Shown: positions 4,590 to 24,968 of the stretch, piece by piece
How positions within the stretch are numbered: position 1 is the stretch's first letter
Layout of the letters: each line of letters begins with the position of its first letter
Assembly: GCA_009937575.1 (NCBI GenBank)
Contig: JAACFI010000011.1
Location: 1-33,540 of the forward strand
DNA: 33,540 nucleotides
Direction: 5' to 3'
DNA from: Haliea sp.
Lineage (GTDB): Bacteria > Pseudomonadota > Gammaproteobacteria > Pseudomonadales > Halieaceae
Translations under genes and position numbers: made by a program
The notes under the pieces: model-generated
Told to the model about the DNA's origin: nothing
The model's database searches: none
What the model saw: only the letters and a program-made list of their open reading frames with translations

Positions 4590-4847
4590 ATGAACAGGAT
4601 ACAAGGCGCGGTGACAGCCCTCGCCCTGGTGGCGTCTGTCGGTTTTTCCGCATCCACAATGGCCGAAACCGCGGCTGAGGAGGGACAGCGCCTGTTTCGG
4701 GAGCACTGCCGCAACTGCCACCGGCTGGAGCGCATGGATTTTGAAGCCCAGTCCCGCGCCGTGCGCCGCTACCACCGGGGAATGAAATCCCGGGGCAAGA
4801 CCTGCATCGACTGCCACGAGGGAATCGCCCACCCTGAATCCGGTTGA
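4590..4847 (+). CDS. Small periplasmic diheme c-type cytochrome resembling the C-terminal half of NapC/NirT
   Basis: An 85-residue exported protein with two haem-binding CxxCH motifs, CRNCH and CIDCH. The signal peptide (residues 1-25, ending STMAE) replaces the membrane anchor of NapC. From CRNCH onward it reads like haems 3 and 4 of NapC/NirT quinol dehydrogenases: CRNCH-x5-MDF-x2-QSRA, then MKSRGKTCIDCHEGIAHP. Full NapC proteins are about 200 residues with four haems and a transmembrane helix, so this is a half-size derivative. It probably acts as a soluble periplasmic electron carrier. The start is well supported by AGGAGA six bases before the ATG. It has no obvious operon partner: MscS lies upstream and an AraC-type regulator downstream. 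It could feed the quinoprotein cluster on the other strand, but that is only proximity. Confidence 0.8.
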   Translation: MNRIQGAVTALALVASVGFSASTMAETAAEEGQRLFREHCRNCHRLERMDFEAQSRAVRRYHRGMKSRGKTCIDCHEGIAHPESG

Positions 4848-4924
4848 TTATCCCGCTTTTGTCGGGGCGATCTATACGCTGATACACTTGCCGGCAATCA
4901 GAGTAACCGTGTCGGGCCTTTGCC

Positions 4925-5944
4925 TTGCCTATCGATAACCAATTGGAAGTGAGTGTCGGCCTGACCCGGGCGATCCTGGACGCCCTGCGTACCGTGAACG
5001 TCGATGCCCCCGAAACCCTGTTACAGGCGACGGGTATCGATCCGGACCAGCTGGATAAACCCGAAAATCGCATTCCACTGAAACAGCAGCAGGCCCTGTG
5101 GCAGCTCGCTGTAGAGTGCAGCCAAACCGGTGATTTCGGCCTGCATTTTGCGCGCTGTATCCAACCCACAAGCTTTGGCCTGCTGGGTTACATGGCCATG
5201 AACTGCCGTACCATCGATGAGAGCCTCGAGGCGGTGGTGAAGTACCAGTTCCTCGCGGGGCAGGGTGGAGAGTTCACCCTGGAGCGCGAAGGGAAGCAGG
5301 TCAAGCTGTGCTATACCCCTGTCAATCCCGGTCACCCGGCGACTGCCCAGCGGGTGCTGGCGATGCTGGCTTCCAGCGTCAGTTTTGGACGCTGGCTGGT
5401 CGGCGAAGCCTTCAGGCCCCGGCGGGTCGAATTGTGCCAGGAGGTGGCAGAGAACCCGCTGGCCTACGAGGAATTTTTCAACTGCCCGGTGAGTTTCGGT
5501 GCCCCGCGCAACCTGCTGACCTATGATTCTTCAGTGACACAGCTCGCCGTTCCAAATGCCAGTGAGGACCTGTTGCAGCTTCTGAGTGAGCGGGCCAACC
5601 GCCTGCTGGACAGCGTTTCCCGTCGCTCCGGTATCGCCGCGCGCATTGCCAGCCTGCTGGCCACCCAGCTGACCAATACAGTGCCGGACAAGACCGTTAT
5701 CGCGGCGCAGTTGGGAATGAGCGAACGCACCCTGCAGCGCAGGTTGCAGGAAGAGGGGACCAGTTTCCAGGAGATCCTCGATGACACCCGGCACTACCTG
5801 GCCCGGGAGCTATTGCGCAATACCGCCCTGGCCCTCGGCGATGTGGCGTCACAACTGGGGTTTGCCGAGCCCAGTGCATTTTTCCGCGCCTTCAAGAAGT
5901 GGGAGGGTTGCACTCCGGGGCAGTACCGGGCTGGTTCGTCCTAG
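4925..5944 (+). CDS. AraC-family transcriptional regulator (arabinose-binding-like N-domain)
   Basis: A DNA-binding regulator of 339 residues. The N-terminal two thirds match the domain found in OruR/ArgR-type AraC regulators (LLQATGIDPDQL, then FGLLGYMAMNCRTIDESLEAVVKYQ). The C-terminal 90 residues hold the double helix-turn-helix: VIAAQLGMSERTLQRRLQEEG and LGDVASQLGFAEPSAFFRAFKKWEGCTPGQYR. It probably binds a small ligand and activates nearby genes. It converges on the P450/PQQ cluster, ending 85 bases from it, so control of that cluster is plausible but not shown by the sequence. The start is uncertain: TTG at 4925 gives the full family length, while GTG at 4949 has a slightly better upstream purine run. 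No strong ribosome-binding site precedes either. Confidence 0.85.
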   Translation: MPIDNQLEVSVGLTRAILDALRTVNVDAPETLLQATGIDPDQLDKPENRIPLKQQQALWQLAVECSQTGDFGLHFARCIQPTSFGLLGYMAMNCRTIDESLEAVVKYQFLAGQGGEFTLEREGKQVKLCYTPVNPGHPATAQRVLAMLASSVSFGRWLVGEAFRPRRVELCQEVAENPLAYEEFFNCPVSFGAPRNLLTYDSSVTQLAVPNASEDLLQLLSERANRLLDSVSRRSGIAARIASLLATQLTNTVPDKTVIAAQLGMSERTLQRRLQEEGTSFQEILDDTRHYLARELLRNTALALGDVASQLGFAEPSAFFRAFKKWEGCTPGQYRAGSS

Positions 5945-5973
5945 CTGGCACACCATCCTGGATGGGTGCATTT

Positions 5974-5996
5974 ATGGTGCGCAGTGCGCACCCTAC
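5974..5996. repeat. Palindromic REP-like repeat, copy 1
   Basis: GGTGCGC and GCGCACC arms flank a 3-base centre (AGT), preceded by AT and followed by CTAC. The same core recurs at 9921-9986 and 11905-11925. This copy lies between the convergent ends of the AraC regulator and the PQQ-haem dehydrogenase, where such repeats often sit. Confidence 0.7.
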
Positions 5997-6028
5997 CGGT
6001 GCTGCGGCAACGTAAATGTGCAATCAGC

Positions 6029-8005
6029 CTATTTCACGCGGTAGGCCAGCAGGACATTACCAGGCAGTTGCCCGAACATGGAGTAGCCGGACTGCACGTA
6101 GAGCCAGCCGCCGGCGAGAACCTGGCCGCTCACGTCGATAGCGCCACCGTGGCCCTTTACTCCATTGGTGGTATCGAAGGGTCTGGCGGTTTCGGTCTGC
6201 CACAGGATTTCCCCGCTCTGCAGGTCGAAGGCCCGCACTTTGCCGTCCAGGCCGGCGCTGAAGGCCAGCTCGGCTGTGGCGGTGATGGCGGAGGACAGGC
6301 CGTAATAGAACGAGCAGCGGTACTGTTCCTGCAGGTCTATTTTCTTTCCCATGCTCATATTCTTCAGGCCTACCATCGGTTTATTGGCCTCCTCGATAAG
6401 ACAGCCGCGCTCGACGATCTGCTGCCAGTGGACTTCGCCGTCATTCAGGTTCAAAGCGTGTATTCCCGGCTTGGGCACATATCCCGGACGATCCCGCTCA
6501 GGGTCTGAAGCGGCCACCAGCAGTTTTTCACCGGACAGGGCCATGCCCCAATGGATACCGCCATTGGTGGTGGTTTTCTCCAGGTCCGGGCCGATGGCAG
6601 CATTACTCACCCTCCGGTTCCACAGTACTTTGCCATCCCGTCCCACTGGGTCCGGGTCGAGGGCGAAGACATCACCGGATTTCTGTCCCGCCAGCAGTAT
6701 GTCGCCGCCATCGGGTCGCGGGGCCAAAATGACGGACGCTCCGAAGTCGAAATCCCCGCCAGCATTATCGGGACAGTTGGCACCCTCGGTAAGGCAGGCC
6801 GCGTTCCACACATCATCGGGAATAGCCTGGAAGCGCCACACCAGCTCACCGCTGTCCATGTCCAAAGCGACGATAGCGTCAGAGGTGTCGGTGGCGGGAT
6901 GGGAAAGGTTTTCCCCGGTGCCGATATAGATGCGGTTGCGTTTGGTGTCGATGGTCGGCGTGGACCAGACGCTGGCGCCGGAGGGCCCATAGATATCGAC
7001 ACCATCCCGGTTCTTCCCCTGCAGGGTTGCATCCGGGGTGGCATGCCACTCCCAGATTCTGGCGCCACTGCTGGCATCCAGGGCGATGACGCCGCCGTGG
7101 GATTTGCAACAGATGTGGCTGGGGCTGCCGGTTACCGCCACCTCGTAGGAGGACACCGGCACGAACAGCCTGTTGTCATGGTAGCTGATGGAACCGGTGA
7201 TCACCGAAGTTTCATAGACCCTGGCGGCTTCCTGCCAGACCACCTCCAGGCTCAGGGGATCCATTGCGTAGATGGACGCCATGGAGTCGGCAAAGACCAG
7301 TAATTGCCTGCCGTCGTTGAGCGTTGCCACGGTGATCGCCGAGCGAATCCCGCTGAGTACCTCGGTGTGACGGCGGATGCAGCCAGTGTGACGGTCTATG
7401 GCATAGAGCTTGCCGGTCTTATCACCGAAGTAGAGCGTATCGCCGATGATCGCCGGTTGGGAGCGCATGTCGGTGACCCGGGGAAAGGCCAGGCTCCAGG
7501 CCAACTGGAGACTATCCACGTTGTCCCGGGTAATACCCGACATCTCCGCGGAAACGTAGCGGCGGTTGTGGGTACCCAGACCCCAGTTGGCCACATATTC
7601 GGTGGTATCGACCCCGGCTTCCCCGGTGCAGCGGTGGTCCTCCAGCCAGGTATCCGGGGGTGCCGTGCCTGCCAGGTAGACTGCAATCAGGCCCCGTTCC
7701 TGCTTGCTCAGGTGGGCTGCCATGGGCTGCATCTTGCCGAACTCCATGGCGACGATCACGGTTTCCTTGGCAAAGCCAGACAGGGCCTCCCGGGTCGGGG
7801 CGTGCGTGGCAGGATTGTCGTGGCAGGAGGCGCAGTGCTGGTTGAACAACCTTTCCCCGAGGTATTCCAGCGGCAGCTTGTCCGCGTGACGAATAGCCAG
7901 TGACTCGAGTTTTTTCATCGGATCGTCACTGAGCAGCAGCCCCCCCGCGACAAGGATGACCGCAGCCAGCAAGGTGATGGAGACAATGGCAAAAAGTTTC
8001 TTCAC
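6029..8005 (-). CDS. Haem-containing PQQ-dependent dehydrogenase (polyvinyl-alcohol-dehydrogenase-like)
   Basis: A periplasmic quinohaemoprotein of 658 residues that should oxidise an alcohol with PQQ and pass electrons through its own haem. Residues 1-26 are a hydrophobic signal or membrane anchor without a clear cleavage site. Residues 47-115 are a cytochrome c domain with CASCH at 58-62 and a likely axial Met in GKMQPM (92 or 95). Residues about 135-655 form the PQQ beta-propeller with repeated VVALD...SGELVW-type blades. Cys299-Cys300 match the adjacent-cysteine disulfide near PQQ in quinoprotein alcohol dehydrogenases. DVWNAAC, the NCP...GGDFDFGAS segment and GGIHWGMA are typical of the polyvinyl-alcohol-dehydrogenase group. 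The substrate need not be that polymer. GTG start, six bases after the upstream dehydrogenase gene; last gene of the cluster. Confidence 0.85.
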   Translation of the reverse strand: MKKLFAIVSITLLAAVILVAGGLLLSDDPMKKLESLAIRHADKLPLEYLGERLFNQHCASCHDNPATHAPTREALSGFAKETVIVAMEFGKMQPMAAHLSKQERGLIAVYLAGTAPPDTWLEDHRCTGEAGVDTTEYVANWGLGTHNRRYVSAEMSGITRDNVDSLQLAWSLAFPRVTDMRSQPAIIGDTLYFGDKTGKLYAIDRHTGCIRRHTEVLSGIRSAITVATLNDGRQLLVFADSMASIYAMDPLSLEVVWQEAARVYETSVITGSISYHDNRLFVPVSSYEVAVTGSPSHICCKSHGGVIALDASSGARIWEWHATPDATLQGKNRDGVDIYGPSGASVWSTPTIDTKRNRIYIGTGENLSHPATDTSDAIVALDMDSGELVWRFQAIPDDVWNAACLTEGANCPDNAGGDFDFGASVILAPRPDGGDILLAGQKSGDVFALDPDPVGRDGKVLWNRRVSNAAIGPDLEKTTTNGGIHWGMALSGEKLLVAASDPERDRPGYVPKPGIHALNLNDGEVHWQQIVERGCLIEEANKPMVGLKNMSMGKKIDLQEQYRCSFYYGLSSAITATAELAFSAGLDGKVRAFDLQSGEILWQTETARPFDTTNGVKGHGGAIDVSGQVLAGGWLYVQSGYSMFGQLPGNVLLAYRVK

Positions 8006-8011
8006 GCCGGC

Positions 8012-10027
8012 TTATCCTTCCTCCGGCAGGGCGAAGGCATAGACATAGTCTCCCTGACCCCGACTGAACATATGGTGACCGCCGGCATTGATGACCAGGT
8101 ACTGGCGTCCGCGATAGCGGTAGGTCATCGGTGTGGCAGTGGCATCCACCGGCAGGGTGTACTGCCACAGGGTATCGCCCGAATCCACGTCGAAGGCCCG
8201 AATCCGACGGTCCATGGTGGCGCCGATAAAAAACAGGCCGCCTGCGGTGGCAATGCCGCCTCCCAGGTTGGGGGTGCCCCACTCGATATCGAAGGGCGCG
8301 GTCACCGGTCCCATCTCGTGTACTGAGCCCAGGGCGCGCTCCCACAGGATGATTCCCCCCTGCAGGTCCACTGCCACCAGCTTGCCCCAGGGGGGCGGGT
8401 TGCAGGGAATACCCAGGGGTGACTGCAGGCTGCCGATCTCGATGTCGTAGGGGGTGCCGTCCATGGTGATCCGCATGCGATGCCCAGCAGCGGGATGATC
8501 AAACTTACTGCTCCCGGATTCGATTTCCGCAGGGGTGGGAATGAGTTGGCCGGAGAAGGCCACGTTATTGACGTTCACCAGCAGTACACCGCTATCGCCT
8601 GCCAGTGCGCCGCCACCCCAGTTGGCGCCACCCAGGCTGCCCGGGTACATGAGGGTCAGCGTTTCACTGGTGGGGGTGAACAGCCCGAGATTGTGCATTG
8701 AAGCCAGCTGCTTGCGGCAATTGCCGCGGTCCCAGGGGGTCAGTCCCCAGGCGTCTTCCGGCATGAGAAACGGGTCCAGTAGCTGGGGTGGGGCGATTGG
8801 CTTGGGTTGTGTTGGCGCCGTGTACTCACCGGGAATCTGCGACGGCGGCACCGGTTGCTCGGTGATCTCCCACAGGGGTTTTCCGGTGAGGCGGTTGAAC
8901 ACGAAAATGAAGCCCTGCTTGGTCAACTGGGCCAGGGCCGGCACGCTGTCGCCACCTCTTCGCCACTGGAACAATATGGGCTGCGCCGGCGTGTCGTAGT
9001 CCCACAGGTCATGGCGCACGTGCTGGAAGTACCAGCGCACCTCACCATTGAACAGGTCCAGGGCGACCACGCTGTTGGCATAGAGGCCGTCATCGGGGCG
9101 GTCCACACCGTAGTAATCCGGCGACGCGGCGCTGGTGGGCAGGAACAGCAATCCGTTTGCCTCGTCCACGGACATGGGTGCCCACACGTTGGCGCTGCCA
9201 CTGTCGGGGTGACCCAGCAGGGGATCGAACTGCCACAGGGGTGCGCCGGTGCTGGCATTAAAGGCCTTTACCGTGCCGCGTGGCGTTTTGCTGCGGGCAA
9301 AATCGATAACCGTGGAACCGACCACGATCACGCCTTTGGCCACCACCGGGGCCGAAGAGTTACTCACATCTCCGGGTACGTGGCCTTCCTCGCCGTAGAG
9401 TCTCACCCTGCCATTGTCACCGAATTGCTTGCAGGGCGTGCCGTTGATGGCATCCACTGCCCACAGACTGCGATCGTGGGTACCCAGGAACAACCGGTGC
9501 CTGCAGGCCTGGCCCCGGGCAATCGATGTGTCCTCCGCGTAACTGACCCCGCGGCAGCGAAAGGGCCGGTCGCCACGGCGATCAATCTGCGGGTCGAATT
9601 CCCAGCGCTGCTCCCCGCTGCCGGGGTCCAGGGCGATTACCCGATTGAAGGGGGTGCAGTAAACCAGCGATTCCCCGGCGGCCGGTGGCAGCAGGATCGG
9701 CGTGCTCTGGGTGGAGGTTTTTTCCATCTCATCGCCGTAGCGTTGCATGTCGCCGCTGCGGTGGATCCAGGCGACCTCCAGGTCCACCACGTTGTCGCGG
9801 TTGATCTGGTCAGCGGATGAGTAGTGCCGGCCGCCCTGGTCGCCGCCGTAATACAGCCAGTCGGGTTGCTCGGCGGTGGCCCACGGCGTCACGCATATCA
9901 ATGCAGGCAGGAGGATCAGGTAATGGCGCGCAGTGCGCACCCTACGGCGTATTGCAATCCCGTAGGGTGCGCACTGCGCACCATTAACTCGAAACCGGCA
10001 CATTGTCCTGATACGAATCACCCTCAC
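8012..10027 (-). CDS. PQQ-dependent dehydrogenase (glucose-dehydrogenase-like fold, no haem)
   Basis: A periplasmic quinoprotein of up to 671 residues. The propeller begins YYGGDQGGRHYSSADQI and contains the family's active-site patterns RHDLWDYDTPAQP and TKQGFIFVFNRLTGKPLW (catalytic Lys region), then GTPNLGGG and the closing YRYRGRQYLVI. No CxxCH motif is present, so electrons must leave through a partner, perhaps the haem domains encoded on either side. The GTG at 10027 overlaps the upstream stop (GTGA), suggesting coupling. The N-terminus is odd: a palindromic repeat (9921-9986) supplies about codons 14-36, just before the hydrophobic signal core YLILLPALICV and an Ala-Thr-Ala cleavage site (50-52). 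ATG at codon 9 or GTG at codon 30 are alternative starts; the latter gives a tidy 23-residue signal peptide but lacks a ribosome-binding site. Confidence 0.85.
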   Translation of the reverse strand: MRVIRIRTMCRFRVNGAQCAPYGIAIRRRVRTARHYLILLPALICVTPWATAEQPDWLYYGGDQGGRHYSSADQINRDNVVDLEVAWIHRSGDMQRYGDEMEKTSTQSTPILLPPAAGESLVYCTPFNRVIALDPGSGEQRWEFDPQIDRRGDRPFRCRGVSYAEDTSIARGQACRHRLFLGTHDRSLWAVDAINGTPCKQFGDNGRVRLYGEEGHVPGDVSNSSAPVVAKGVIVVGSTVIDFARSKTPRGTVKAFNASTGAPLWQFDPLLGHPDSGSANVWAPMSVDEANGLLFLPTSAASPDYYGVDRPDDGLYANSVVALDLFNGEVRWYFQHVRHDLWDYDTPAQPILFQWRRGGDSVPALAQLTKQGFIFVFNRLTGKPLWEITEQPVPPSQIPGEYTAPTQPKPIAPPQLLDPFLMPEDAWGLTPWDRGNCRKQLASMHNLGLFTPTSETLTLMYPGSLGGANWGGGALAGDSGVLLVNVNNVAFSGQLIPTPAEIESGSSKFDHPAAGHRMRITMDGTPYDIEIGSLQSPLGIPCNPPPWGKLVAVDLQGGIILWERALGSVHEMGPVTAPFDIEWGTPNLGGGIATAGGLFFIGATMDRRIRAFDVDSGDTLWQYTLPVDATATPMTYRYRGRQYLVINAGGHHMFSRGQGDYVYAFALPEEG
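9921..9986. repeat. Palindromic REP-like repeat, copy 2 (inverted pair)
   Basis: Two 26-base arms (9921-9946 and 9961-9986) are inverted copies with one mismatch, separated by 14 bases. Each arm contains the GTGCGCACTGCGCACC-type core seen at 5974 and 11905, plus the TAGGGTGCGC extension. The pair would form a long hairpin. It lies inside the 5' coding region of the PQQ dehydrogenase gene and is in frame. Confidence 0.85.
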
Positions 10028-11775
10028 CCCCCTAACGGCGTAATCCGCAACAAGGTCGGCACCCCACCCTCGGATTGCCAGGTCGGGAAATGGGAATTGG
10101 TGGTATAAATCGCCCCATCCTCCTCGGAGATCTCGATATCCCGGGTGAAAAACCGCTGCCGGGGCATCGGGTAGACCTTCCAGCTCTCACTGTCGATATC
10201 AAAGCCCAGGATAGTGTCCGACTGGTTGCCATTGACCCACACCACCCCACGCTGGCGATCGACGTTCAGGGCATAGGGCAGTTCGTTGACTACCGGCAAC
10301 TCGTAATGGGTGAACGCTTCGGTCGCGGGGTCATACTTCACCAGCAGGGAATCCTGGAAGGCGACGATCCAGATATTGCCGTCGGCGTCCACCCTCAGGC
10401 GCCGCGGCCCGTTATAGGGGAAGTCGATCATGGTGATCTCGTCGGTTTCGGGGTCGATGCGGGCAATGTCGTTGGCGTACAGGCGGGCCGCCCACACCGT
10501 GCCGTCAGGGGCGACGTCGATGCCGTAGGGCATGGGCAGCCCGGTGGACTCCCGGTCGGGTGAGGGTGTCGGCCGTTTTTCCGCGTCGATGCTGAACAAA
10601 ACCGGCAGGGACTTCAGGGTCAGCCATTCCATGAACCCGCGGGCCGGGAGGTCGTAGGTTTTGAATTTACCGGTTTCCCTGTTGAACATGGCGACCTGGG
10701 AAGACAGGGCCAGGGTAAACCAGACCCGGTCCTGGTCATCGGTGCGGATGGTATGCGGGTAAAAGCCCTCCGGCATGTCGTGAACGATGAATTTCTTGGT
10801 CTCCACGTCAAATTCCAGCAGGGCCTGCTGCATGGAAGGCGTAATGAAGATGTTACCGTCCTTCTTCGAGTAGGCGAAGGAGTGCACTCCCATGTAGTTG
10901 TACATTTTGGGGAACACCTTGAAACGGTTGCCCATGATGCCGCCCAGGCTCATGTCGGGGTCGTGGGGCACCTTGTACACCGTGTATCTGCCGGTGTCGG
11001 GATCCAGTTCATAGATGCGGTCGAACAGGTTGTCGCCGATGTAGATATAGCCATTGGGGTGTAACAGGAAATCGTGCATCTGGGAAAAGCCGTCGCCGAT
11101 GGGCCACTCGGTCATCTCTATCCCCGACAGGTGATCCTCCCAGCTGCGTGGAAGCGGTACCCTGTCGGGATTTTCCCGCAGTTCCCGGTATTCTTCCTGC
11201 ATCAGGCGGGCCACGGGTGCGTGATCATCTTCCGGGAGGCGGGCACCGTAGGTATTCATCCGCTCTATCACGCTGATCCACTGCTCTTCGGTGCGCTCGT
11301 TGCGCATAAACGGCGAGGCCTGCTGGTGGCAGAAGGCGCAGTTGAGCTGGAAGGTTTTCTTCAGTTCCTCGTCGCCGCCGAAACTGAGTTGTGACAGCCA
11401 GACATTGGAGGGGTAACTGGCGATATGCTGCTCGGGGCTCATTGGCTGCATTACCAGAGTCTCGGGAAGCTGGTCGAAATAGGCGTCTACGTAGCCCTGG
11501 GCCCGGACGCGGTAGCGATGGTCCTGGCCTGAGGCGTCGAAGCTGACCTTGCCCGCGGCGTCGCTGAAGCGGGTGACCACCGTTGGACTGGTGTTGGTCA
11601 TGCCGTGTGGTGTGTAACCGTCGTCGCTTAGATCCGCCGCGGGTACCTCAAGGGGGGTGCGGGTGACCATCACCTGGGCCAGGGGTTGGCCCTGCTGATT
11701 GCTGATCGTCAGGGTGTCACCCAGGCTGGTCTGGGCCACCAGCAGCAGGCCGAGCCAGAAGCTGTGTATGCGCAT
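10024..11775 (-). CDS. Exported Vgb-like beta-propeller protein with a haem-binding domain
   Basis: A periplasmic protein of 583 residues with three parts. After a signal peptide (1-19), residues 20-110 look like a carboxypeptidase-regulatory or other Ig-like fold (TISNQQGQPLAQVMV, then GKVSFDA...YRVRAQGY). Residues 125-200 contain one haem motif, NCAFCH (CAFCH at 146-150), in a cytochrome-like helical region. Residues about 205-583 are a streptogramin-lyase (Vgb)/SMP-30-like propeller with repeats such as GIDVAPDGTVWAARLYAND and RLRVDADGNIWIVAF. A real antibiotic lyase is unlikely given export, the haem and the neighbours. A role as redox partner or substrate-handling protein for the adjacent PQQ enzymes is more plausible. 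The start has GGAGAG upstream. It overlaps the next gene by 4 bases and lies 153 bases after the P450 gene. Confidence 0.78.
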   Translation of the reverse strand: MRIHSFWLGLLLVAQTSLGDTLTISNQQGQPLAQVMVTRTPLEVPAADLSDDGYTPHGMTNTSPTVVTRFSDAAGKVSFDASGQDHRYRVRAQGYVDAYFDQLPETLVMQPMSPEQHIASYPSNVWLSQLSFGGDEELKKTFQLNCAFCHQQASPFMRNERTEEQWISVIERMNTYGARLPEDDHAPVARLMQEEYRELRENPDRVPLPRSWEDHLSGIEMTEWPIGDGFSQMHDFLLHPNGYIYIGDNLFDRIYELDPDTGRYTVYKVPHDPDMSLGGIMGNRFKVFPKMYNYMGVHSFAYSKKDGNIFITPSMQQALLEFDVETKKFIVHDMPEGFYPHTIRTDDQDRVWFTLALSSQVAMFNRETGKFKTYDLPARGFMEWLTLKSLPVLFSIDAEKRPTPSPDRESTGLPMPYGIDVAPDGTVWAARLYANDIARIDPETDEITMIDFPYNGPRRLRVDADGNIWIVAFQDSLLVKYDPATEAFTHYELPVVNELPYALNVDRQRGVVWVNGNQSDTILGFDIDSESWKVYPMPRQRFFTRDIEISEEDGAIYTTNSHFPTWQSEGGVPTLLRITPLGG

Positions 11776-11789
11776 GTTGCTCTCCGCGG

Positions 11790-11810
11790 GACAATATGGG
11801 GAGTATTGTC
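11790..11810. promoter_or_regulatory. Inverted repeat just upstream of the Vgb-like gene
   Basis: GACAATA and TATTGTC (7-base perfect arms) flank a 7-base spacer. The site ends 15 bases before the Vgb-like start codon, close to its ribosome-binding site. It could be an operator or an mRNA hairpin that affects translation. No good -35/-10 pair accompanies it. Confidence 0.4.
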
Positions 11811-11904
11811 ACAGTTTGGGAGCCTCAGGTCATTGCCCGGGGGTGGCCAGGGTTATGGCATATCGCGCCATGTGGTGGTCGTTCGGGTGGGAAATCGCAT
11901 GATG

Positions 11905-11925
11905 ATGGTGCGCGGAGCGCACCAT
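11905..11925. repeat. Palindromic REP-like repeat, copy 3
   Basis: ATGGTGCGC and GCGCACCAT are perfect 9-base arms around GGA. The repeat starts three bases beyond the P450 stop codon, in the gap before the Vgb-like gene. It may cap or stabilise the P450 transcript. Confidence 0.7.
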
Positions 11926-11928
11926 GAA

Positions 11929-13173
11929 TTACGCGACGTTCGTCTTCAACACCAACCGCTTGAACACAATCGCATTGTGGTCGCTGTCGTCCCGCTCCGG
12001 TTCTCCGTCCAGTTCCACGTCCGGGAAGCGCTTGAACAGTTCGGTAATTGTCAGGTACAGCTGGCGCTTGGCCAGAGCCGCGCCGATGCAGTAACGGGGG
12101 CCGTAGCCGAACATCACGTCCGGGTCGAATACCCGCTCCACGTCGAAGGTCTCCGGGTTGTCGTAATAGTTAGGGTCGTAATCCTTCAGGTGCGGCATCA
12201 TCAGCACCATGACGCCCTTGCGCAGTTGCTCTCCCATGAACTCCATGTCCCGGGGCGCATAGCGGGCGAAGCCCATCTTGGAAGAGACCCCCCAGCGGTT
12301 GATCTCGCTGAAGGCGTTGGAGAAGGCATCGGGGGAGGACAGCGCCTTCTCCACCTGGTCCCGGTGCTTCAGCAGCGCGTAAACCGACCACTGCTGGGCC
12401 ACCAGGGTGGTGTCGGCACCGGCGCCGATCAGGGCCAGGATCAGGGTGACGATGTCCCCCTCCTCGAAGCCCTCGTTTTCCGCCTCGATATTCAGCAGGG
12501 TGCTGAGAAAGTCATCCTGTTCGGGCGCGTTGCGGCGCTCGGCAATCACCTCCCTGATGATGTCGATGGCGCGGTTGCTGTCCTGGCGTGCGCTCTCGCG
12601 TTGCTCGTCGGAAATGGTCGGGTTCCAGGTCTCGGTAAAAGTCATGATCACCTGCTTGATATCCGGCCAGTATTTCTCCGGGATGCCCACCATGCGGGTG
12701 ATGGAGATGAAGGGGATGTGGTTGGCGATTTTCTCGATGTAATCGAAGCGCTCCGGCTGTCCCAGTTCGTCGAACAGTCGTTTTACGTCGGGTTCGATCT
12801 TGCGCTGGATGGCGTCCACCACGTTGCGGGAGAAGGCGGGGGCGGTGACCCTTCGCACCAGCCGGTGGTGGTCGTGGTCCGCCAGCAGGCTGTGGCCGAT
12901 CATGGCCCGTTCGAAATTACTCCACTGGTCCTCCGGCGGGCGCGGTGGCGCAAATTCCCAGTCGTAGAAATCCGAGGAAAGCGGTTCCTCCTTCCAGCAG
13001 GCCATGATGTCCGGCATGCGGGTCATGATCCATGCCTGCCAGGGCTCGTACCACACCAGAGGACCCCGCTCGGCCAGTGCCAGGCACTGGGGCACCGGGT
13101 CCTCCATATACGCCCGGGAGTGGGGGTCAAATATTTCCTGTACCGGGGGAAGTTTTTCGGCGGCTTCTGCCAT
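11929..13173 (-). CDS. Cytochrome P450 monooxygenase
   Basis: A soluble bacterial P450 of 414 residues that would hydroxylate a hydrophobic substrate using O2 and electrons from a ferredoxin system. All hallmarks are present: I-helix oxygen-activation motif AGADTT (251-256), K-helix ExxR (E290-R293), and the haem-thiolate loop FGYGPRYCIGAALA with Cys362. There is no signal peptide or membrane anchor, so it is cytosolic. The ATG at 13173 is chosen over an in-frame start at 13206 because AGGAG lies six bases upstream. It is the first gene of the minus-strand cluster, preceded by a promoter with an overlapping palindrome. No ferredoxin or reductase gene is in the window, so partners must come from elsewhere. 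The CYP family and substrate cannot be named from motifs alone. Confidence 0.93.
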   Translation of the reverse strand: MAEAAEKLPPVQEIFDPHSRAYMEDPVPQCLALAERGPLVWYEPWQAWIMTRMPDIMACWKEEPLSSDFYDWEFAPPRPPEDQWSNFERAMIGHSLLADHDHHRLVRRVTAPAFSRNVVDAIQRKIEPDVKRLFDELGQPERFDYIEKIANHIPFISITRMVGIPEKYWPDIKQVIMTFTETWNPTISDEQRESARQDSNRAIDIIREVIAERRNAPEQDDFLSTLLNIEAENEGFEEGDIVTLILALIGAGADTTLVAQQWSVYALLKHRDQVEKALSSPDAFSNAFSEINRWGVSSKMGFARYAPRDMEFMGEQLRKGVMVLMMPHLKDYDPNYYDNPETFDVERVFDPDVMFGYGPRYCIGAALAKRQLYLTITELFKRFPDVELDGEPERDDSDHNAIVFKRLVLKTNVA

Positions 13174-13236
13174 GCGAATCTCCTTGTCGGGTTGTGCTGA
13201 GTGCACTTTCCACTACTGTCAATCGGATCTCCAGGC

Positions 13237-13267
13237 AAAAGTATACATCTGTATACTTTTATCTCAA
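13237..13267 (-). promoter_or_regulatory. Promoter of the P450 cluster with a 24-bp palindromic operator
   Basis: Minus strand: -35 TTGAGA (13267-13262), a 16-base spacer, and -10 TATACT (13245-13240), each 5 of 6 to consensus. A palindrome covers the -10 and spacer: arms AAAAGTATACA (13237-13247) and TGTATACTTTT (13250-13260), perfect over 11 bases with a 2-base centre. A dimeric repressor, for example of the TetR type, bound here would block RNA polymerase. The transcript would start near 13232, giving a leader of about 60 bases before the P450 start. The site occurs once in the window. Confidence 0.65.
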
Positions 13268-13279
13268 GTTACAAATTGT

Positions 13280-14809
13280 TCAGGAAGGTTCAACCAGGGA
13301 AACCGGGGGGGTGACATTCTCCCCCGGTGGCAATCGGTCGTAGTAGGTCAGCAACGCGTGTATCCGCGGGCCCAGGTCATCCGGCACCTGTTCCCAGTTG
13401 AAGCGCCAATGCCAGTTGCCCTCGGTGGTGCCAGGGGTATTCATCCGGTGCCTGCCGTCCAGGCCGAGGAAATCCTGCCAGGGCACGATCGCCGTTTTGG
13501 CGGGGGAAGCCATGGCCTGGGCAATGAGCATCCAGGGCATACCTTCGTCGGGGTGGTTGAAGTAACGGTAGACCCTGCCCTTGATATCATCGTCCAGGTT
13601 CTTGAACCAGCCCAGGGTGGTATCGTTGTCGTGGGTGCCGGTATAGACGATATCCCCCTGATTGTGGCGGTGGCTGAGGTAGGGGTTTTCCGGGTTGCCG
13701 TCGAAGGCGAACTGCAGGATCACCATACCGGGCAGCTCGAACTCTGCCCGCAGGGCTTCGACTTCGGGGCTGATGGTGCCCAGGTTCTCCGCCACCAGGC
13801 GCAGGTCCGGGTAGGTATTGCGCACCAGTTGCAGCAACTCCCGCCCGGGCGCCGGGACCCATTTCCCCTGCTTTGCCGAACTGGCATCCGCGGGTATCTC
13901 CCAGTAGGCCTCCAGCGCGCGGAAATGATCGATGCGGGCAATATCGAACTGGCGTGCGGCGGTGTCGAAGCGCTGCAGCCACCACTGGAAGCCGTCCGCC
14001 TGCATGCGCTGCCAGTTGTACTGGGGATTGCCCCACAGCTGGCCCTCCTCAGAGAAGTAGTCGGGTGGCACACCGGTGACGGTGATCGGCTGCCCTTCAT
14101 CGTCCAGGTCGAACAGATCCTGGTGGGCCCACACGTCCGCGCTCTCCTGGTGAACATAGATCGGCATGTCGCCAAACAGCAGCACCCCCCGCTCGTTGGC
14201 GTAGCGCCGCAGTGCGTGCCACTGGCAGTCGAATACGAACTGGCGGAAGCGCAGGGTGCTGATCTGGGAAGCCAGCTCGCCTGCTCGCTGTTCACAGGCG
14301 CCCGGCTCGCAGTGGCGCAGGCCGGTCGGCCAGCTGGCCCAGGGCCGCCGCTGCTCGGCGTCGCGAAAGGCCTGGAAGCGCACGTAGTCCTCCAGCCAGA
14401 ATTCAGCTTCCTGCAAAAACAGCTGATACAGGGCGATCATCGGTGAATGCTGTGCCGTTTCCACCTGGTGGAAGAAGGCCCGCCCGGCCTGGTCCAGGGC
14501 CTCGCGTTTGGCCCGCGGGGTGCACAAAGCAGCCGCTGCCTGGCTTTCCTCGAGCCAGCCCTGGTCCACCAGCCAGTGGAGGTCAATCAGGTCCGGGTTG
14601 CCCGCGTGCACCGAAAAACTCTGGTAGGGGCAGCCGTCGTCGTGGGTAGGACCCAGGGGCAGAACCTGCCATATCTGCACACCGGCGTCGGCGATCAGGT
14701 CGATGAAGCGCCGGGCTTCAGCGCCGAAGTCCCCGCCGTAGCCTGGACCGGGCAGGCTGCTGGGGTGCAGCAGCACCCCGGCGCGACGCCGGTCGGTCAG
14801 CTTAGACAT
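13280..14809 (-). CDS. malQ: 4-alpha-glucanotransferase (amylomaltase, GH77)
   Basis: Disproportionates maltodextrins in the cytosol by transferring glucan segments, releasing glucose. The 509-residue length fits the short plant/Thermus-type enzyme rather than E. coli MalQ (about 690). The N-terminus RRAGVLLHPSSLPGPGYGGDFG and WQVLPLGPTHDDGCPY are classic. Catalytic residues are visible as Asp294 (RIDHFRALE), Glu341 (VAENLG) and Asp394 (YTGTHDNDT). The ATG at 14809 shares its A with the TGA stop of the GH57 gene (TGATG), so it is coupled to that gene; an upstream extension of the frame runs through GH57 coding sequence and is not used. Last gene of the glgC-GH57-malQ arm. Confidence 0.93.
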   Translation of the reverse strand: MSKLTDRRRAGVLLHPSSLPGPGYGGDFGAEARRFIDLIADAGVQIWQVLPLGPTHDDGCPYQSFSVHAGNPDLIDLHWLVDQGWLEESQAAAALCTPRAKREALDQAGRAFFHQVETAQHSPMIALYQLFLQEAEFWLEDYVRFQAFRDAEQRRPWASWPTGLRHCEPGACEQRAGELASQISTLRFRQFVFDCQWHALRRYANERGVLLFGDMPIYVHQESADVWAHQDLFDLDDEGQPITVTGVPPDYFSEEGQLWGNPQYNWQRMQADGFQWWLQRFDTAARQFDIARIDHFRALEAYWEIPADASSAKQGKWVPAPGRELLQLVRNTYPDLRLVAENLGTISPEVEALRAEFELPGMVILQFAFDGNPENPYLSHRHNQGDIVYTGTHDNDTTLGWFKNLDDDIKGRVYRYFNHPDEGMPWMLIAQAMASPAKTAIVPWQDFLGLDGRHRMNTPGTTEGNWHWRFNWEQVPDDLGPRIHALLTYYDRLPPGENVTPPVSLVEPS

Positions 14810-16503
14810 CAACCGTTCTCGCTGCCGTGGCGCATCACGCCGCCCCGGGAGGGCCGGCCACCACCCCGGGAAATGACATCGCCCAGGTGAGGGGGTGCTT
14901 CCACGTTGATCAGCTGGTACAGATTGGCCAGGTGCATGCGATACAACTGGTCGAACTGACTGACGGTCGCCGAGGGATTGTAATCCCCGAACCACCAGAA
15001 CCAGTCGGACCCCTCGCAAATAGCGAGTTGTACCTCGGCGGCGGCGAGCTCGTCGGCGGTCAGGGCGCCACTGCTCACCTGTTCGTCGAAGCGGCGTTTA
15101 GCCTCCACCAGCAGCTCCCAGCCCCGGTTTTTCTCGGGGTCGCCTATCCAGGTGGAGAAGGTGCCATAGACCCAGCTGCCCGCCACCAGTTTGTCCTCAC
15201 GTGAGGGCTGGTGTGCGCTGTCCCCAATGAAGGACTCGAAAGTGGTCAGCTCTAAGCCCGGGTGCTGGTCCAGTGTCTGGTAGAGGTGATGCAGGAAGTA
15301 ATAGCCGTTTTCCGGGTAGTACTCCCAGGCATTCTCCCCGTCCAGGATGATGGTGATCAGGCAGTCCTCCCGGTCAGGGCACAGCTCGGCGATATTTTCC
15401 ATGTGGACGACCAGGTTGGCCACCGCGTCCTCCGCATGCCAGTCGGAGTAGGTGAAACCGATCAGGTCCGACAGGCCGTCGTCGCGGAATATGCAATCGA
15501 TGGCGGCATCACCGAAGCGGTAAACCCGGTGGCTGCAGGATTTGCTATGGGCGTCGTGGCTGTTGTCGAGTACGCTGCCGCCACTGGCCGCCCAGCCAAA
15601 GCCGCTATCCGCGAACAGTTCCAGCGCCGCCTGGCTCATCCCGCCCTCGGAGGGCCAGATGCCTACCGGTTCGCGGCCGAATACTCGCTGGAAGGTCTCC
15701 CGGCCCTGCTGCAGGTGCCAGCGGGCGCGTTCCTCCCCGCCGGGGTACTCGGTGTTGACCGGCAGGGGGACGTCGGGCATGGCCTCCCGGGCGGAGTTCA
15801 TATCCAGCAACAGGGGGATGATGGGGTGAGCGTAAGGGCTCATGCACAGCTCCACCTGGCCACTTTCAGCCAGTGCCCGGTAGCGGGGCAGGATGGAACG
15901 CAATTCCTCCAGGATGATCTGCAGCAGCTCCCGCCGGTCGTGCACGCTGTAGTTGCAGGCCTTGTCCTCCAGCTGGCGTACCCGATCATCCTGACGCCGG
16001 GTTGATTCTGCCAGCCAGCTCAGGTGGTACCACACCAGCAGGTCCGCCAGGAACTGGTTGGAGGCGTAGATCAGGCTCTCCGGGTGCTGCTCGTACCACT
16101 CCGCCATGGTCGCCAGGCGCCGGTAGGGCTCAAAGCGCTCAATCATGCGCTCCCGGTTGGCGCGCAGGCAGTCCTGCATCAGGCGCAGGCGCGCACGCTC
16201 GTCCCCGGGCAGGGCTGGTTCCGCCAGTTCCGCCAGAATAGGGTCGCGAATCGCCCCGTGACCCTCCAGGTAGGCAGAAACCTGTTCTACGTAATCCTCG
16301 ATCTGCTCCAGCAGAATGGGAGCAAAGTTCACGACTGTCCGGGCGCCGGGGACGGCCTCCAGGTGCGCCGCCATGTCCACGTAATCCTTGATGGCGTGCA
16401 GGTAGGTCCACGGCAGGTGGATGGTGCCGGTGCGCATATCGCGGTACTCGGGCTGGTGCATATGCCAGCACAGCACCACGCTCATAGGCTTGTCAGCGGG
16501 CAT
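14809..16503 (-). CDS. Glycoside hydrolase family 57 protein (alpha-amylase/glucanotransferase type)
   Basis: A cytosolic alpha-glucan-active enzyme of 564 residues. GH57 conserved regions appear in order: HMHQPEY (14-20), the SPYAHPIIPLL region (222-232), GIWPSEGGMS with the probable nucleophile Glu286, and DGENAW (388-393) with the probable acid/base Asp388. A further conserved stretch, SWVYGTFSTWIGDPEKNRGW, follows. No signal peptide is present, so it acts on internal glycogen or maltodextrin rather than external starch. Its start overlaps the glgC stop by 11 bases and its stop overlaps malQ by one base, a tight operon. GH57 enzymes include amylases, 4-alpha-glucanotransferases and branching enzymes; a separate GH13 branching enzyme in this locus makes a hydrolase or transferase more likely. 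The last 30 residues are a Gly/Arg-rich tail outside the usual domain. Confidence 0.85.
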   Translation of the reverse strand: MPADKPMSVVLCWHMHQPEYRDMRTGTIHLPWTYLHAIKDYVDMAAHLEAVPGARTVVNFAPILLEQIEDYVEQVSAYLEGHGAIRDPILAELAEPALPGDERARLRLMQDCLRANRERMIERFEPYRRLATMAEWYEQHPESLIYASNQFLADLLVWYHLSWLAESTRRQDDRVRQLEDKACNYSVHDRRELLQIILEELRSILPRYRALAESGQVELCMSPYAHPIIPLLLDMNSAREAMPDVPLPVNTEYPGGEERARWHLQQGRETFQRVFGREPVGIWPSEGGMSQAALELFADSGFGWAASGGSVLDNSHDAHSKSCSHRVYRFGDAAIDCIFRDDGLSDLIGFTYSDWHAEDAVANLVVHMENIAELCPDREDCLITIILDGENAWEYYPENGYYFLHHLYQTLDQHPGLELTTFESFIGDSAHQPSREDKLVAGSWVYGTFSTWIGDPEKNRGWELLVEAKRRFDEQVSSGALTADELAAAEVQLAICEGSDWFWWFGDYNPSATVSQFDQLYRMHLANLYQLINVEAPPHLGDVISRGGGRPSRGGVMRHGSENG

Positions 16504-17761
16504 AGTGGAGCCTCTGGCCCAGCATTTCCGGGCTTACCAGTACCACGCCCCCCGGGGAGACGTGAAAGCGGCTGGCGTCCTCCACCGGGTCGACGCCGAT
16601 CTGGGTGCCGGGTGGGATGATGCAGCCCTTGTCGATCACCGCCTTGCGGATCACGCTGCTCCTTCCGATCTGGACCTCGGGAAATATCACCGCGTCTTCG
16701 ACCTCACAAAATGAGTGTATGTGTACATTACTGAACAACAGCGAGTGGCGCACACTCGACCCGGAGACGATGCAGCCGCCGGCCACCATCGAATCCACGG
16801 ACATGCCCCGGCGCCCCTCATCGTCGAATACGAATTTGGCCGGCGGCACCTGGTCCTGGTAGGTCCAGATGGGCCAGTCCCTGTCGTACAGGTTGAGTTC
16901 CGGGCTGACACCGATCAACTCCAGGTTGCCCTCCCAGAACGCGTCGATCGTCCCCACATCACGCCAGTAGGCGCGGTGGCCGTCCGGCCCTTCACGGAAC
17001 GGAAATGCATTGACCTTCAGGCGCTGGATGACATCGGGGATGATATCGCCACCGAAATCGTGCTTGGAATAGGTGCTTTCGGCATCCGCCAGCAGTTCCT
17101 GGATCAGTATCTCGGTGCGAAATACGTAGATGCCCATCGACGCCAATGCCACACTGTCGTCACCGGGCATCGAGGCCGGGTTTTCCGCTTTCTCGGCGAA
17201 CTCCACGATGCGATTGTCTGCGTCCACCGCCATCACCCCGAAGGCATGTGCCTGTTCGATAGGTACTTCCATGCAGCCCACGGTGATATCTGCATCCGCC
17301 TCCACGTGGGCTGCCAGCATGTCGCCGTAATCCATCTTGTAGACGTGGTCCCCGGCCAGGATCAGCACGTATTCCGGTGCGTGGGTGCGGATGATGTCGA
17401 TATTCTGGTAGATGGCGTCCGCCGTGCCCGCGTACCAGGAGGTCTCCAGCCGCTGTTGGGCGGGCAGCAGCTCCACGAACTCCCCCAGTTCGCCGCGCAT
17501 GAACCCCCAGCCCCGCTGTACGTGCTGGATCAGGCTGTGGGCCTTGTACTGGGTGAGAATCCCCACTTTGCGGATACCGGAATTGACACAGTTTGACAGG
17601 GGAAAGTCGATAATGCGGAACTTGCCGCCAAAGGGTACCGCCGGCTTGGCGCGCCACATGGTGAGCTGCTTGAGTCGGGACCCGCGGCCGCCCGCGAGGA
17701 TCAGCGCAAGGGTACCCCTTGTCAGGCGGCTGACGTATCTGGCTGAATCCTGGTCAGTCAT
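16493..17761 (-). CDS. glgC: Glucose-1-phosphate adenylyltransferase (ADP-glucose pyrophosphorylase)
   Basis: Makes ADP-glucose from glucose-1-phosphate and ATP, the committed and usually allosterically controlled step of bacterial glycogen synthesis. The 422 residues match the family. The nucleotide-binding signature [11 protein letters not shown] (residues 20-30) is followed by [36 protein letters not shown], the [11 protein letters not shown] metal site and the FAEKAENP sugar-phosphate loop. The C-terminal third holds left-handed beta-helix hexapeptides ([36 protein letters not shown]). It is the first gene of the minus-strand arm and diverges from glgB across a 146-base control region. 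The ATG at 17761 has only a weak purine-rich ribosome-binding site (GAAAGTGAA). Confidence 0.96.
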
Positions 17762-17907
17762 TTCACTTTCATTGATCTGTAAACTGGTTAGAGTAGATTT
17801 AATTGATTACCATCAATTTACGTCAGCGGGGAATGCCTCACTCTATTGTGGACAATATATCGGGATTTTTCCTGCCTTTGTGGTTGATATAAATCAGTAG
17901 ATAATCA
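17762..17907. promoter_or_regulatory. Divergent AT-rich control region between glgC and glgB
   Basis: This 146-base gap is far more AT-rich than the genes beside it and must hold promoters for both glycogen arms. A perfect inverted repeat, AATTGAT-TACC-ATCAATT (17801-17818), lies near the middle of it and could bind a dimeric regulator. Candidate -10 elements such as TATAAA toward glgB are visible, but no strong -35 match is present, so promoters are not assigned. Confidence 0.5.
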
Positions 17908-20100
17908 ATGAATTCGGTTTCGACCAGACAAACACTGGATGAGGGGGTGCAACGCCTGTTGGCGGGGCATCATCACGACCCTTTCGAGATCCTGGGCTGC
18001 CACCGGGTGGGCCGGCACTGGCGACTGAGGGTGCTGTTGCCAGGGTGCGCCGAGGCACAGGTGTCGATCGACGGGGCGACACATCCCATGGTGCGCATGC
18101 CGGATACCGATTTTTTCACCTTCAGTGCCCGGGGCTCATCCGCGCCGGATTACCAGCTGCGCTGGCGCAGGGACGGCGGCGAGTGGCGCCAGATTGACGA
18201 CCCCTACCGCTTCGGGCCGGTGATCGGGGACCTGGACTTGCACCTGTTTGGTGAAGGCCGGCACGAGCACCTGTATCGCATCATGGGAGCCCACTGCGGT
18301 GAGCATCAGGGTGTTTCGGGGGTGCGCTTTGCCACCTGGGCGCCCAACGCCAGACGGGTCAGCGTGGTCGGTGACTTCAACGACTGGCACGGACTGGCGC
18401 ATCCCATGCGGGTGCGGGGCCAGAGTGGGGTGTGGGAGCTGTTCATCCCGGGACTTGAGGCAGGGGGAAAATACAAATTCGAGTTGTGTGATGCCAATGG
18501 CAAGTTGCAACTGAAGGCGGATCCCTACGGCAACCGCTTCGAGATGCGACCGGCCACCGCGGCTGTCATCTGCCCGCCCAGTGAATACCGGTGGTCGGAC
18601 CACCAGTGGCTGCAGCAGCGAGCCGCCTGGGACTGGCAGCAGTCACCGATCTCCATTTATGAATTCCACCCCGGTTCCTGGCGGCGAGGTGCGGATGGAG
18701 AGTTCCTCAATTTCCGGGAAATGGCCGAGCAACTGGCAGAGTACGTCTCACAGCTGGGTTTCACCCACGTGGAACTGCTGCCGGTGACAGAGCACCCCCT
18801 GGATGATTCCTGGGGTTACCAGACCACCGGCTATTTCGCCCCCACGCAGCGCTTCGGCAGCCCGGACGACTTCCGCTATTTCGTCGATTACCTGCACCAG
18901 CGAGGCATTGGCGTCATTCTGGACTGGGTGCCGGCCCATTTTCCCCGGGACACCCACGCCCTGGCACATTTCGACGGTACCGCCCTGTACGAGCACGAGG
19001 ATCCGCGGCGCGGCGAGCACACGGACTGGGGAACCCTGATCTTCAATTACGGGCGCAACGAGGTGAAGAACTTCCTGCTGGCCAGCGCCAACTACTGGCT
19101 GGAGGAATTCCACCTGGACGGCCTGCGGGTGGATGCCGTGGCCTCCATGCTGTATCTCGATTACTCCCGCGAGGAGGGAGAGTGGGAGCCCAACCGCTAC
19201 GGCGGTCGGGAAAACCTGGAGGCCATCGACTTCCTGCGCGAGCTGAATACCATGACCCACGGCCGCCACCCGGGCACCCTTACCATCGCCGAGGAATCCA
19301 CCGCCTGGCCCCAGGTTACCCGCCCCACCTGGGTGGGCGGCCTGGGCTTCTCCATGAAGTGGAACATGGGCTGGATGCACGACACCCTGCACTACATGTC
19401 CCAGGAACCCATCTACCGCAAGTACCACCAGGATGAGTTGACCTTCGGCCTGATGTACGCGTTCACCGAGAACTTCCTGCTGCCCTTTTCCCACGACGAG
19501 GTGGTGCATGGCAAGTCTTCCATGCTGGGGAAAATGCCGGGAGACCCGTGGCAGCGTTTTGCCAACCTGCGCCTTCTGTACACTTATATGTTTACCTATC
19601 CTGGCGCGAAACTGTTGTTCATGGGCGACGAATTCGGTGACCCGGTTGAGTGGCGGCACCAGGGCCAGTTGCCCTGGCAGCTGTTGGAAAATGCGCCGAA
19701 TGCGGGTCTGCAGCGGCTGGTAGGGGACCTCAATCGCCTGTACCGGAATGAGCCCAGTCTGCACCGCGGCCAGTTCACCGGTCCGAGTTTCGAGTGGATC
19801 GACTGCCATGACGCAACCCAGTCGGTACTCAGTTACCTGCGCTGGGACGGCGCCGATTTTCACGTGGTGGTGCTGAATTTCACCCCGGTGGTGCGCCGGA
19901 ACTACCGCATCGGCGTGCCGCGGTCCGGCAATTACCGGGAGGTTCTCAACTCCGATTCGCGCTTCTACGGCGGCACTGACGTGGGCAACCCCCCCGCGTT
20001 TGCCAGTGAAGCCAGGTCATGGATGGGCAAGGAGCATTCGCTGGTCCTGACGCTGCCGCCACTGGCTGCCGTGGTCCTTAAACTGTCCGGAGACCCGTGA
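17908..20100 (+). CDS. glgB: 1,4-alpha-glucan branching enzyme (GH13)
   Basis: Introduces alpha-1,6 branches into glycogen in the cytosol. The 730 residues equal the full E. coli type: an N-terminal carbohydrate-binding-like domain (about 1-115, [10 protein letters not shown]), a second beta-sandwich (about 135-225, [22 protein letters not shown]), the catalytic barrel, and an all-beta C-terminus. Catalytic residues are Asp409 ([10 protein letters not shown]), a Glu in IAEEST (462-463), and Asp528 ([11 protein letters not shown]). The ATG at 17908 has no clear ribosome-binding site. glgA follows immediately, its TTG start abutting this TGA stop. First gene of the plus-strand arm. Confidence 0.97.
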
Positions 20101-21543: not shown

Positions 21544-21560
21544 AGAGGTAGTGACAGAGC

Positions 21561-24107: not shown

Positions 24108-24122
24108 CGTGATCCGGGCAGA

Positions 24123-24136
24123 GGGTACGAATACCC
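24123..24136 (+). other. Small hairpin before the HAD phosphatase ribosome-binding site
   Basis: GGGTA-CGAA-TACCC forms a 5-bp stem with a CGAA loop, ending one base before the GGGGG that probably serves as the ribosome-binding site of the next gene. It might tune translation in the glg mRNA, but a stem this short can arise by chance. Confidence 0.25.
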
Positions 24137-24146
24137 GGGGGCAGTC

Positions 24147-24968
24147 GTGGAACTGATTGTCTTCGATCTCGACGGCACCCTGCTCAATCGCCGATCCGAG
24201 GTGTCCGCGCACACGCGGGAGACCCTGCAGCGGCTCGGGCAGCGCGGTATCGCCTACACGGTCGCCACCGGCCGCACCCTGCACGCCTCCCGCGACCTGC
24301 TGGCCGGTCACGGTTTCATATTGCCCCATATCTACAAGAACGGGGTGATGATCTGGCAGCCGGACAGCGGTCACTACAGCCACAGCAACCTGCTGACCAA
24401 TGGCGAGATCCGCCGGGTGTTCGAGGCCTTTATGGACCAGGGCGTTACGCCGTTTATCTTCACTGTGGAGCCGGGTAACCGCCACGCCGTGTATCACCCG
24501 CCCCTGCAGACCGATACGGAACGCGAGCTGGCCCGGGTGTTCGGTGAGGAACGGGGCCTGGAGCTGTTGCCGGTGGCATCGCTTCCCGCGGAGGCGGACA
24601 TTACCAACATCAGTGCACTGGGTGATCGCGACGCGATAGAGGCGGTGGAGCGCCTGGTACGCGAGGAGGAACACCTGGTGGCCTACGCCGGCGTGGCCAT
24701 CGAGGGCGAGCACCTGCACTGGGTGGATATTCATCACAGCGCAGCGAGCAAGGGCGGCGCCGTGGAGCAGTTGAAACTCGATCTGGGGGTGAGCCGCGTT
24801 ATCTGCTTCGGCGACAGCGACAACGACCTGAGCATGTTCGCCGGGGCGGACGAAAGTTACGCCCCGAGTAACGCGAAGGAAGAGGTCAAGGCGGCGGCCA
24901 CGGCAGTCATCGGTCACCATGACGAGGACGGTATTTCCGAGTTCCTGAGGCGTCGTTTCGATCTATAG
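24147..24968 (+). CDS. HAD-superfamily Cof-type sugar-phosphate phosphatase
   Basis: A cytosolic Mg-dependent phosphatase of 273 residues in the Cof/YbhA-like branch. The four HAD motifs are present: DLDGT with nucleophile Asp7 and Asp9, ATGRT (Thr41), Lys202 in SAASKGGA, and GDSDND (222-227). The C2-type cap lies between motifs II and III (about 80-190). Substrates in this group include sugar phosphates, FMN and PLP. Being 39 bases after glgP, a hexose-phosphate or even PLP (the phosphorylase cofactor) is a reasonable guess, but the sequence does not decide. The start is GTG with GGGGG upstream. Confidence 0.87.
   Translation: MELIVFDLDGTLLNRRSEVSAHTRETLQRLGQRGIAYTVATGRTLHASRDLLAGHGFILPHIYKNGVMIWQPDSGHYSHSNLLTNGEIRRVFEAFMDQGVTPFIFTVEPGNRHAVYHPPLQTDTERELARVFGEERGLELLPVASLPAEADITNISALGDRDAIEAVERLVREEEHLVAYAGVAIEGEHLHWVDIHHSAASKGGAVEQLKLDLGVSRVICFGDSDNDLSMFAGADESYAPSNAKEEVKAAATAVIGHHDEDGISEFLRRRFDL

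Follow-up and report, generated by a model that had tools for sequence, protein, structure and literature searches.

The stretch 6029–11775 of the DNA analyzed here (hereafter the window, 33,540 nucleotides of a Haliea sp. contig) probably encodes, with a probability that we put at roughly two in three, a single periplasmic oxidation module that works on scavenged PQQ under the control of an AraC-family protein, while the neighboring cytochrome P450 would be controlled separately. The three genes of this module (hereafter the trio) encode a Vgb-like protein with a c-type haem (haem-Vgb), a PQQ enzyme of the glucose/quinate dehydrogenase type (GDH-type), and a quinohaemoprotein of the PVADH type, and more than 35 related genomes hold them together; at least 15 Halieaceae genomes show the same order, as do, at 45–63% identity, Porticoccaceae, Cellvibrionaceae, and other genomes. 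Order and tight spacing hold at 45–86% protein identity, with 4-bp overlaps or few-base gaps recurring from genome to genome, a degree of conservation that, judged on these comparisons, is more than chance. Such a three-gene module, conserved over several marine gammaproteobacterial families, appears to be undescribed in the literature that we searched (titles and abstracts, with thin coverage of subscription papers), in which no description of the trio was found.

Open reading frames and Pfam matches confirm the arrangement described by an earlier sequence-only reading, that is, four minus-strand genes in the order P450, Vgb-like, PQQ, PQQ (table 1). The CAFCH motif highlighted there corresponds to residues 146–150 of haem-Vgb and CASCH to residues 58–62 of the PVADH-type protein, CxxCH is indeed absent from the GDH-type protein, and the spacing is as claimed: a 4-bp overlap between the haem-Vgb and GDH-type genes, then a 6-bp gap before the PVADH-type gene. 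The P450-to-Vgb gap measures 153 bp. By its haem-Vgb protein, the host is closest, among named relatives, to Halioglobus, Haliea, Seongchinamella, and Pseudohalioglobus, which places it in the Halieaceae, and its 5.0-Mb draft genome, of metagenomic origin, holds 19 P450 matches and 8 KshA_C domain matches. A search of the window against Rfam returned no match, and a repeated GGTGCGC hairpin element was searched for and not found. Farther out in the window lie an outer membrane protein of the TolC family whose C-terminus carries a fused OmpA domain (138–1934) and, upstream of the P450, genes of glycogen/alpha-glucan metabolism (13280–24920), MalQ and its neighbor being assigned by family search and the others by position. 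Fetched loci, all chosen around P450 or Vgb genes, are labeled L below, and genomes G.

Table 1. Genes and putative regulatory elements around the trio (positions in the window).
Feature	Position	Strand	Remarks
AraC-family regulator gene	4925–5944	+	Arabinose_bd N-domain and HTH_18; convergent with the trio
PVADH-type quinohaemoprotein gene	6029–8005	-	658 aa; Pfam PQQ 1.1e-29 and Cytochrome_CBB3 2.8e-6
GDH-type PQQ dehydrogenase gene	8012–10027	-	671 aa; Pfam PQQ 6.5e-210
Haem-Vgb (Vgb-like) gene	10024–11775	-	583 aa; Pfam Vgb_lyase 1.1e-17
Inverted repeat GTGACAATACTCCCCATATTGTCCC	11788–11812	.	12 bp before the Vgb start; elsewhere only in the closest relative, L061
Hairpin TCATGGTGCGCTCCGCGCACCATCA	11903–11927	-	Just past the P450 stop; without T-run
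Cytochrome P450 gene	11929–13206	-	425 aa as listed from GTG; Pfam p450 E 1e-28
Perfect 24-bp palindrome AAAAGTATACATCTGTATACTTTT	13237–13260	.	Putative repressor operator over the -10 box of the P450 promoter
Sigma-70-like P450 promoter, TTGAGA-16-TATACT	13240–13267	-	Consensus match only

The haem-Vgb protein combines a signal sequence, a beta-sandwich (about residues 20–110), a c-type haem domain (about 114–205), and a Vgb-type beta-propeller (219–580), and its structure, predicted with high confidence (mean pLDDT 89.5), displays a beta-sandwich, a helical haem domain, and a Vgb propeller. C146, C149, H150, and M173 are invariant in 40 relatives, M173 being the likely distal haem ligand, and the scores of the protein against the curated NCBIfam Vgb models (29 and 26 bits) fall below the cut-off of 600. 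As a side observation, in L107–L140, from Burkholderiales, Alteromonadales, and myxobacterial bins, members of the haem-Vgb family occur with no quinoprotein gene, and those of the quinoprotein-free loci that we looked at often contain AraC, epimerase/3beta-HSD-like, SDR, and MFS genes. In plasmid records, neither a full-length haem-Vgb nor a close relative of the P450 was found.

The next gene had been called a haem-less PQQ dehydrogenase, which is correct and can be made more exact, the protein being of the GDH family. It shares 36% identity with E. coli Gcd over the PQQ domain, the alignment starting at Gcd residue 167, and it lacks both the N-terminal membrane domain of the Gcd family and any strong hydrophobic segment; against TIGR03074 (membrane glucose/quinate dehydrogenase) it scores 628 bits for a cut-off of 833. 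R159, W282, D343, K370, N485, and H651 correspond to Gcd R266, W404, D466, K493, N607, and H775, and Gcd His262 has no counterpart, all of these being Gcd residues that we take to have roles in the PQQ site or in catalysis. The PQQ-site columns and the catalytic Asp are invariant in 16 sequences, E. coli Gcd included. The protein is best described, from its sequence, as a putative soluble exported PQQ enzyme of the glucose/quinate dehydrogenase type, with neither membrane domain nor haem.

The third protein begins with a hydrophobic segment, followed by a c-type haem domain and then by a PQQ propeller. Its haem ligands (C58, C61, H62, and M92) are invariant, as are the PQQ-site residues W347, D418, and K442 in 32 sequences, and the structure predicted for it by AlphaFold (mean pLDDT 82) resembles PQQ alcohol dehydrogenases (E about 1e-24). 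A suspected loss of the catalytic Asp (at the motif DVWNAAC) was rejected, the alignment putting D418 at that place. We assign the protein to the PVADH type because it is 31.7% identical, over 649 columns (92%), to a protein of Sphingopyxis sp. 113P3 that is encoded next to an authentic oxidized-PVA hydrolase (OPH; 632 bits to 3WLA) and that we assume to be active as a PVADH. When the window and all fetched loci were searched with OPH by tblastn, only the reference locus matched; since no OPH gene lies beside the PVADH-type gene, the latter would be PVADH-type by protein rather than part of a PVA-degradation system.

The composition of the trio varies at its margins. In Zhongshania, the order becomes PVADH-type, TonB receptor, Vgb, GDH-type, and some outer relatives carry an extra gene inside the trio (a Glyoxalase_4-type gene in L095, one of similar size in L098, and an unknown gene in L078). 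L075, L081, and L084 keep the Vgb and GDH-type pair and miss the PVADH-type gene at the locus, and in L053, L055, and L056 distant homologs of both partners once more form a pair. It is because this association between haem-Vgb and a quinoprotein lacking haem recurs across genomes that we propose the Vgb haem as the electron acceptor of the GDH-type enzyme. Haem-Vgb is not solely a GDH partner, since L105 combines Vgb with a PVADH-type gene and no GDH-type gene and many genomes have haem-Vgb alone. We also note that a DAPG-hydrolase (PhiG)-like gene stands directly before the Vgb–GDH pair at L075:7081–7857, L081:7045–7818, and L084:7121–7897 (L045 is the same contig as L084, the copy being scanned there as L045:10144–10920); by analogy, a PhiG-like carbon–carbon hydrolase beside an alcohol-oxidizing module recalls the combination of PVADH and OPH.

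A different role for haem-Vgb can be envisaged, in which it would be the key enzyme of the system, a lyase or lactonase acting on a product supplied by the quinoproteins, rather than an electron carrier. We consider this improbable: the propeller fold is closest to that of the Vgb lyase (2z2n, TMt 0.88), but identity to Vgb is about 16% and the sequence match is confined to part of the propeller; likewise, the wide distribution of haem-Vgb without quinoproteins in Burkholderiales and Alteromonadales, beside the genes listed above, would suit an enzyme, but the c-type haem motif, being invariant, suggests a redox function. Haem-Vgb as electron acceptor is the reading that we retain.

With regard to the cofactor, pqqC is missing from all 19 trio or Vgb–GDH genomes among the relatives and from all 17 that were checked by locus, which together make about 30 distinct genomes; 11 of the 98 relatives do have pqqC, none of them with the trio. 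In 13 trio genomes, pqqE did not exceed its cut-off, and in nine trio genomes the PqqU importer model (NF041535) reached at best 63 bits for a cut-off of 1200, that is, the scores of generic TonB receptors. PQQ for the trio would have to come by scavenging, and a distant PqqU with the Y99/R304/R365 signature may exist in these hosts. PQQ auxotrophy as such is ordinary, given that E. coli, which does not make PQQ either but has a working Gcd, uses scavenged PQQ through PqqU (PMC12124388). With pqqC absent, pqqE below cut-off, and PqqU unrecognized, formation of the holo-enzymes in trio hosts is not assured. TonB-dependent receptor genes are present beside the trio in Aestuariicella (L099:14060–16177) and Zhongshania (L100:5413–7905); as a PqqU-type PQQ importer, the latter was rejected, scoring 42 of 1200 bits against the PqqU model (NCBIfam).

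The same deficit, together with weak matches of both quinoproteins to an “acido-empty-quinoprotein” model, could mean that the quinoproteins work without PQQ, the fold being empty or differently loaded and serving as carrier or binding protein. This is very unlikely in our view, as the residues that contact PQQ or take part in catalysis do not vary in either family, where an empty fold would not be expected to keep them, and as the case of E. coli illustrates that an auxotroph can have a working PQQ enzyme. Under the reading based on scavenged PQQ, trio hosts, with intact PQQ enzymes and no PQQ synthesis genes, make dependence on a cofactor in the marine environment open to testing.

The P450 preserves the expected motifs (haem FGYGPRYCIG at residue 366, I-helix AGADTT at 262, and ExxR as EINR at 301), is devoid of any signal peptide-like segment, and finds its best solved-structure matches in EpoK, PksS, and a reconstructed CYP125. 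Translation more likely starts at ATG (residue 12, base 13173) than at the listed GTG, because relatives align from residues 8–12. As part of the best explanation of the locus, we propose that it acts as a monooxygenase in the cytosol and is expressed from a promoter of its own, under the control of a repressor. The promoter that the sequence-only reading placed before the P450 does have a sigma-70-like site to its credit, the one promoter-like site in a scan of 4800–13400, but the scan is weak by itself, shuffled sequences giving 2.2 sites on average. The palindrome over this site was matched once, versus never in 100 shuffles (up to three mismatches), and near-copies with at most two mismatches precede P450 orthologs in 17 Halieaceae genomes, whether the trio is adjacent or not. 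Across 2.59 Mb of fetched loci, which were chosen around P450 or Vgb genes, all 41 near-matches (at most three mismatches, duplicates included) lie directly upstream of P450 orthologs, and none precedes a separately placed trio. The palindrome is thus a putative private operator of the P450 and provides a direct handle on its regulator and inducer.

This conserved operator bears on independent regulation, which the sequence-only reading had named as grounds for giving up its proposal, and as cis-evidence it speaks against joint control of the P450 and the trio. Read-through from one into the other may nevertheless occur; the hairpin past the P450 stop is a possible partial terminator or processing site, the fold of the whole intergenic region (z = -1.4) not being compelling, and the inverted repeat before haem-Vgb is a possible trio operator. 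As for the AraC-family protein, its gene adjoins the trio also in genomes without the P450 (L074 and L089) and lies near it in L099, and for this reason it is assigned to the trio as its likely regulator, which likewise favors separate control of trio and P450.

The sequence-only reading had instead joined the four genes into a dedicated two-compartment pathway, with cytosolic hydroxylation followed by periplasmic oxidation of the product, which now appears rather unlikely. That a cytosolic P450 lies beside exported quinoproteins and two proteins with c-type haem stands, but the evidence does not support a single four-gene unit. Same-strand adjacency of P450 and trio does occur in several relatives, with P450–Vgb gaps of about 90–195 bp in the tightest cases, yet it is restricted to three Halieaceae genera; intervening genes include porins that could suit a common pathway (FadL-type in L032, DcaP-type in L063, and a porin also in L065) but also, in L036, an AraC gene. 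Within our sample of 61 Halieaceae genomes, the P450 accompanies the Vgb–GDH core in 17 of 17 cases and is found in 14 of the 44 genomes without it (Fisher p 7e-7 by genome and 0.0014 by genus, shared ancestry being not fully corrected), and both are absent from G003 and G034, single members of two genera. Those 14 P450 genomes nonetheless manage without the trio, and beyond this sample 13 trio genomes have no P450 ortholog; these include Pseudoteredinibacter isoporae and Aestuariicella hydrocarbonica, both isolates, as well as some metagenome bins whose completeness is not stated. Together with the private operator and with the placement of P450 orthologs in other gene clusters, this leads us to view the P450 as a looser companion of the trio, a connection that is suggestive in Halieaceae rather than the organizing principle of the locus.

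P450 orthologs (65–89% identity) occur in 31 of the 61 Halieaceae genomes. In genera other than the three above (L174, L177, L178, and L184), the ortholog is clustered with an SDR, a gene of the acetoacetate decarboxylase (ADC) family, and a KshA-like Rieske oxygenase whose C-terminal domain is of the KshA type; in the genome of the window, it lies apart from the host's Rieske and ADC homologs. Elsewhere (L176 and L185), its neighbors are a GcvT-like protein, a Rieske oxygenase of a second type, and two FAD enzymes resembling CrtO/phytoene desaturase. The steroid-type Rieske enzymes of the orthologous cluster provide a lead, and a lead only, toward an alicyclic (sterol- or terpenoid-like) alcohol as substrate of the trio. 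It is interesting to mention that Halieaceae contain cholesterol degraders (PMC5790920) and that the isolate “BC5_1,” which carries the Vgb gene, the GDH-type gene, and the P450, probably corresponds, from its name, to BC51, a cholesterol degrader in that study. These steroid leads do not tie the trio to steroids directly.

In the mechanism that we propose, the soluble GDH-type enzyme would oxidize an alcohol (or an aldehyde hydrate) and pass its electrons to the haem of the Vgb propeller, while the membrane-tethered PVADH-type quinohaemoprotein would oxidize that alcohol, or a related one, and deliver electrons through its own haem. Both routes would feed a periplasmic cytochrome c and then an oxidase, expression of the trio being controlled by the adjacent AraC protein. 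The P450, placed before the trio in three Halieaceae genera, may hypothetically supply a hydroxylated alicyclic substrate. In this scheme, a soluble GDH-type enzyme would have a haem-propeller for its electron partner. A bolder version seems quite unlikely to us, namely that the trio constitutes a new periplasmic oxidation system of bacteria that do not make PQQ, with the Vgb haem-propeller as dedicated acceptor of the soluble quinoprotein, with an unrecognized PQQ uptake or a different cofactor, and with the P450 joining in Halieaceae on sterol/terpenoid-type compounds.

Pairing hydroxylation by a P450 with subsequent oxidation by an alcohol dehydrogenase is the concept of CYP153/alkane or terpene systems, and P450 plus trio would share it; unlike in those systems, the P450 considered here has structural matches of the EpoK/PksS/CYP125 type, no adjacent ferredoxin gene, and a looser linkage to the dehydrogenases. 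The KshA-type Rieske/ADC/SDR cluster of Haliea and relatives holds an orthologous P450 (about 70–75% identity in the four loci named above) and, unlike the window locus, is without quinoprotein genes. As for haem-Vgb, it differs from the Vgb lyase in that its propeller shares a chain with a beta-sandwich and a c-type haem domain. Finally, the PVADH of Sphingopyxis sp. 113P3 presents the same succession of an N-terminal c-type haem domain and a PQQ propeller as its counterpart in the window, but where the former has an OPH as neighbor, the latter is accompanied by a GDH-type enzyme and a haem-Vgb.
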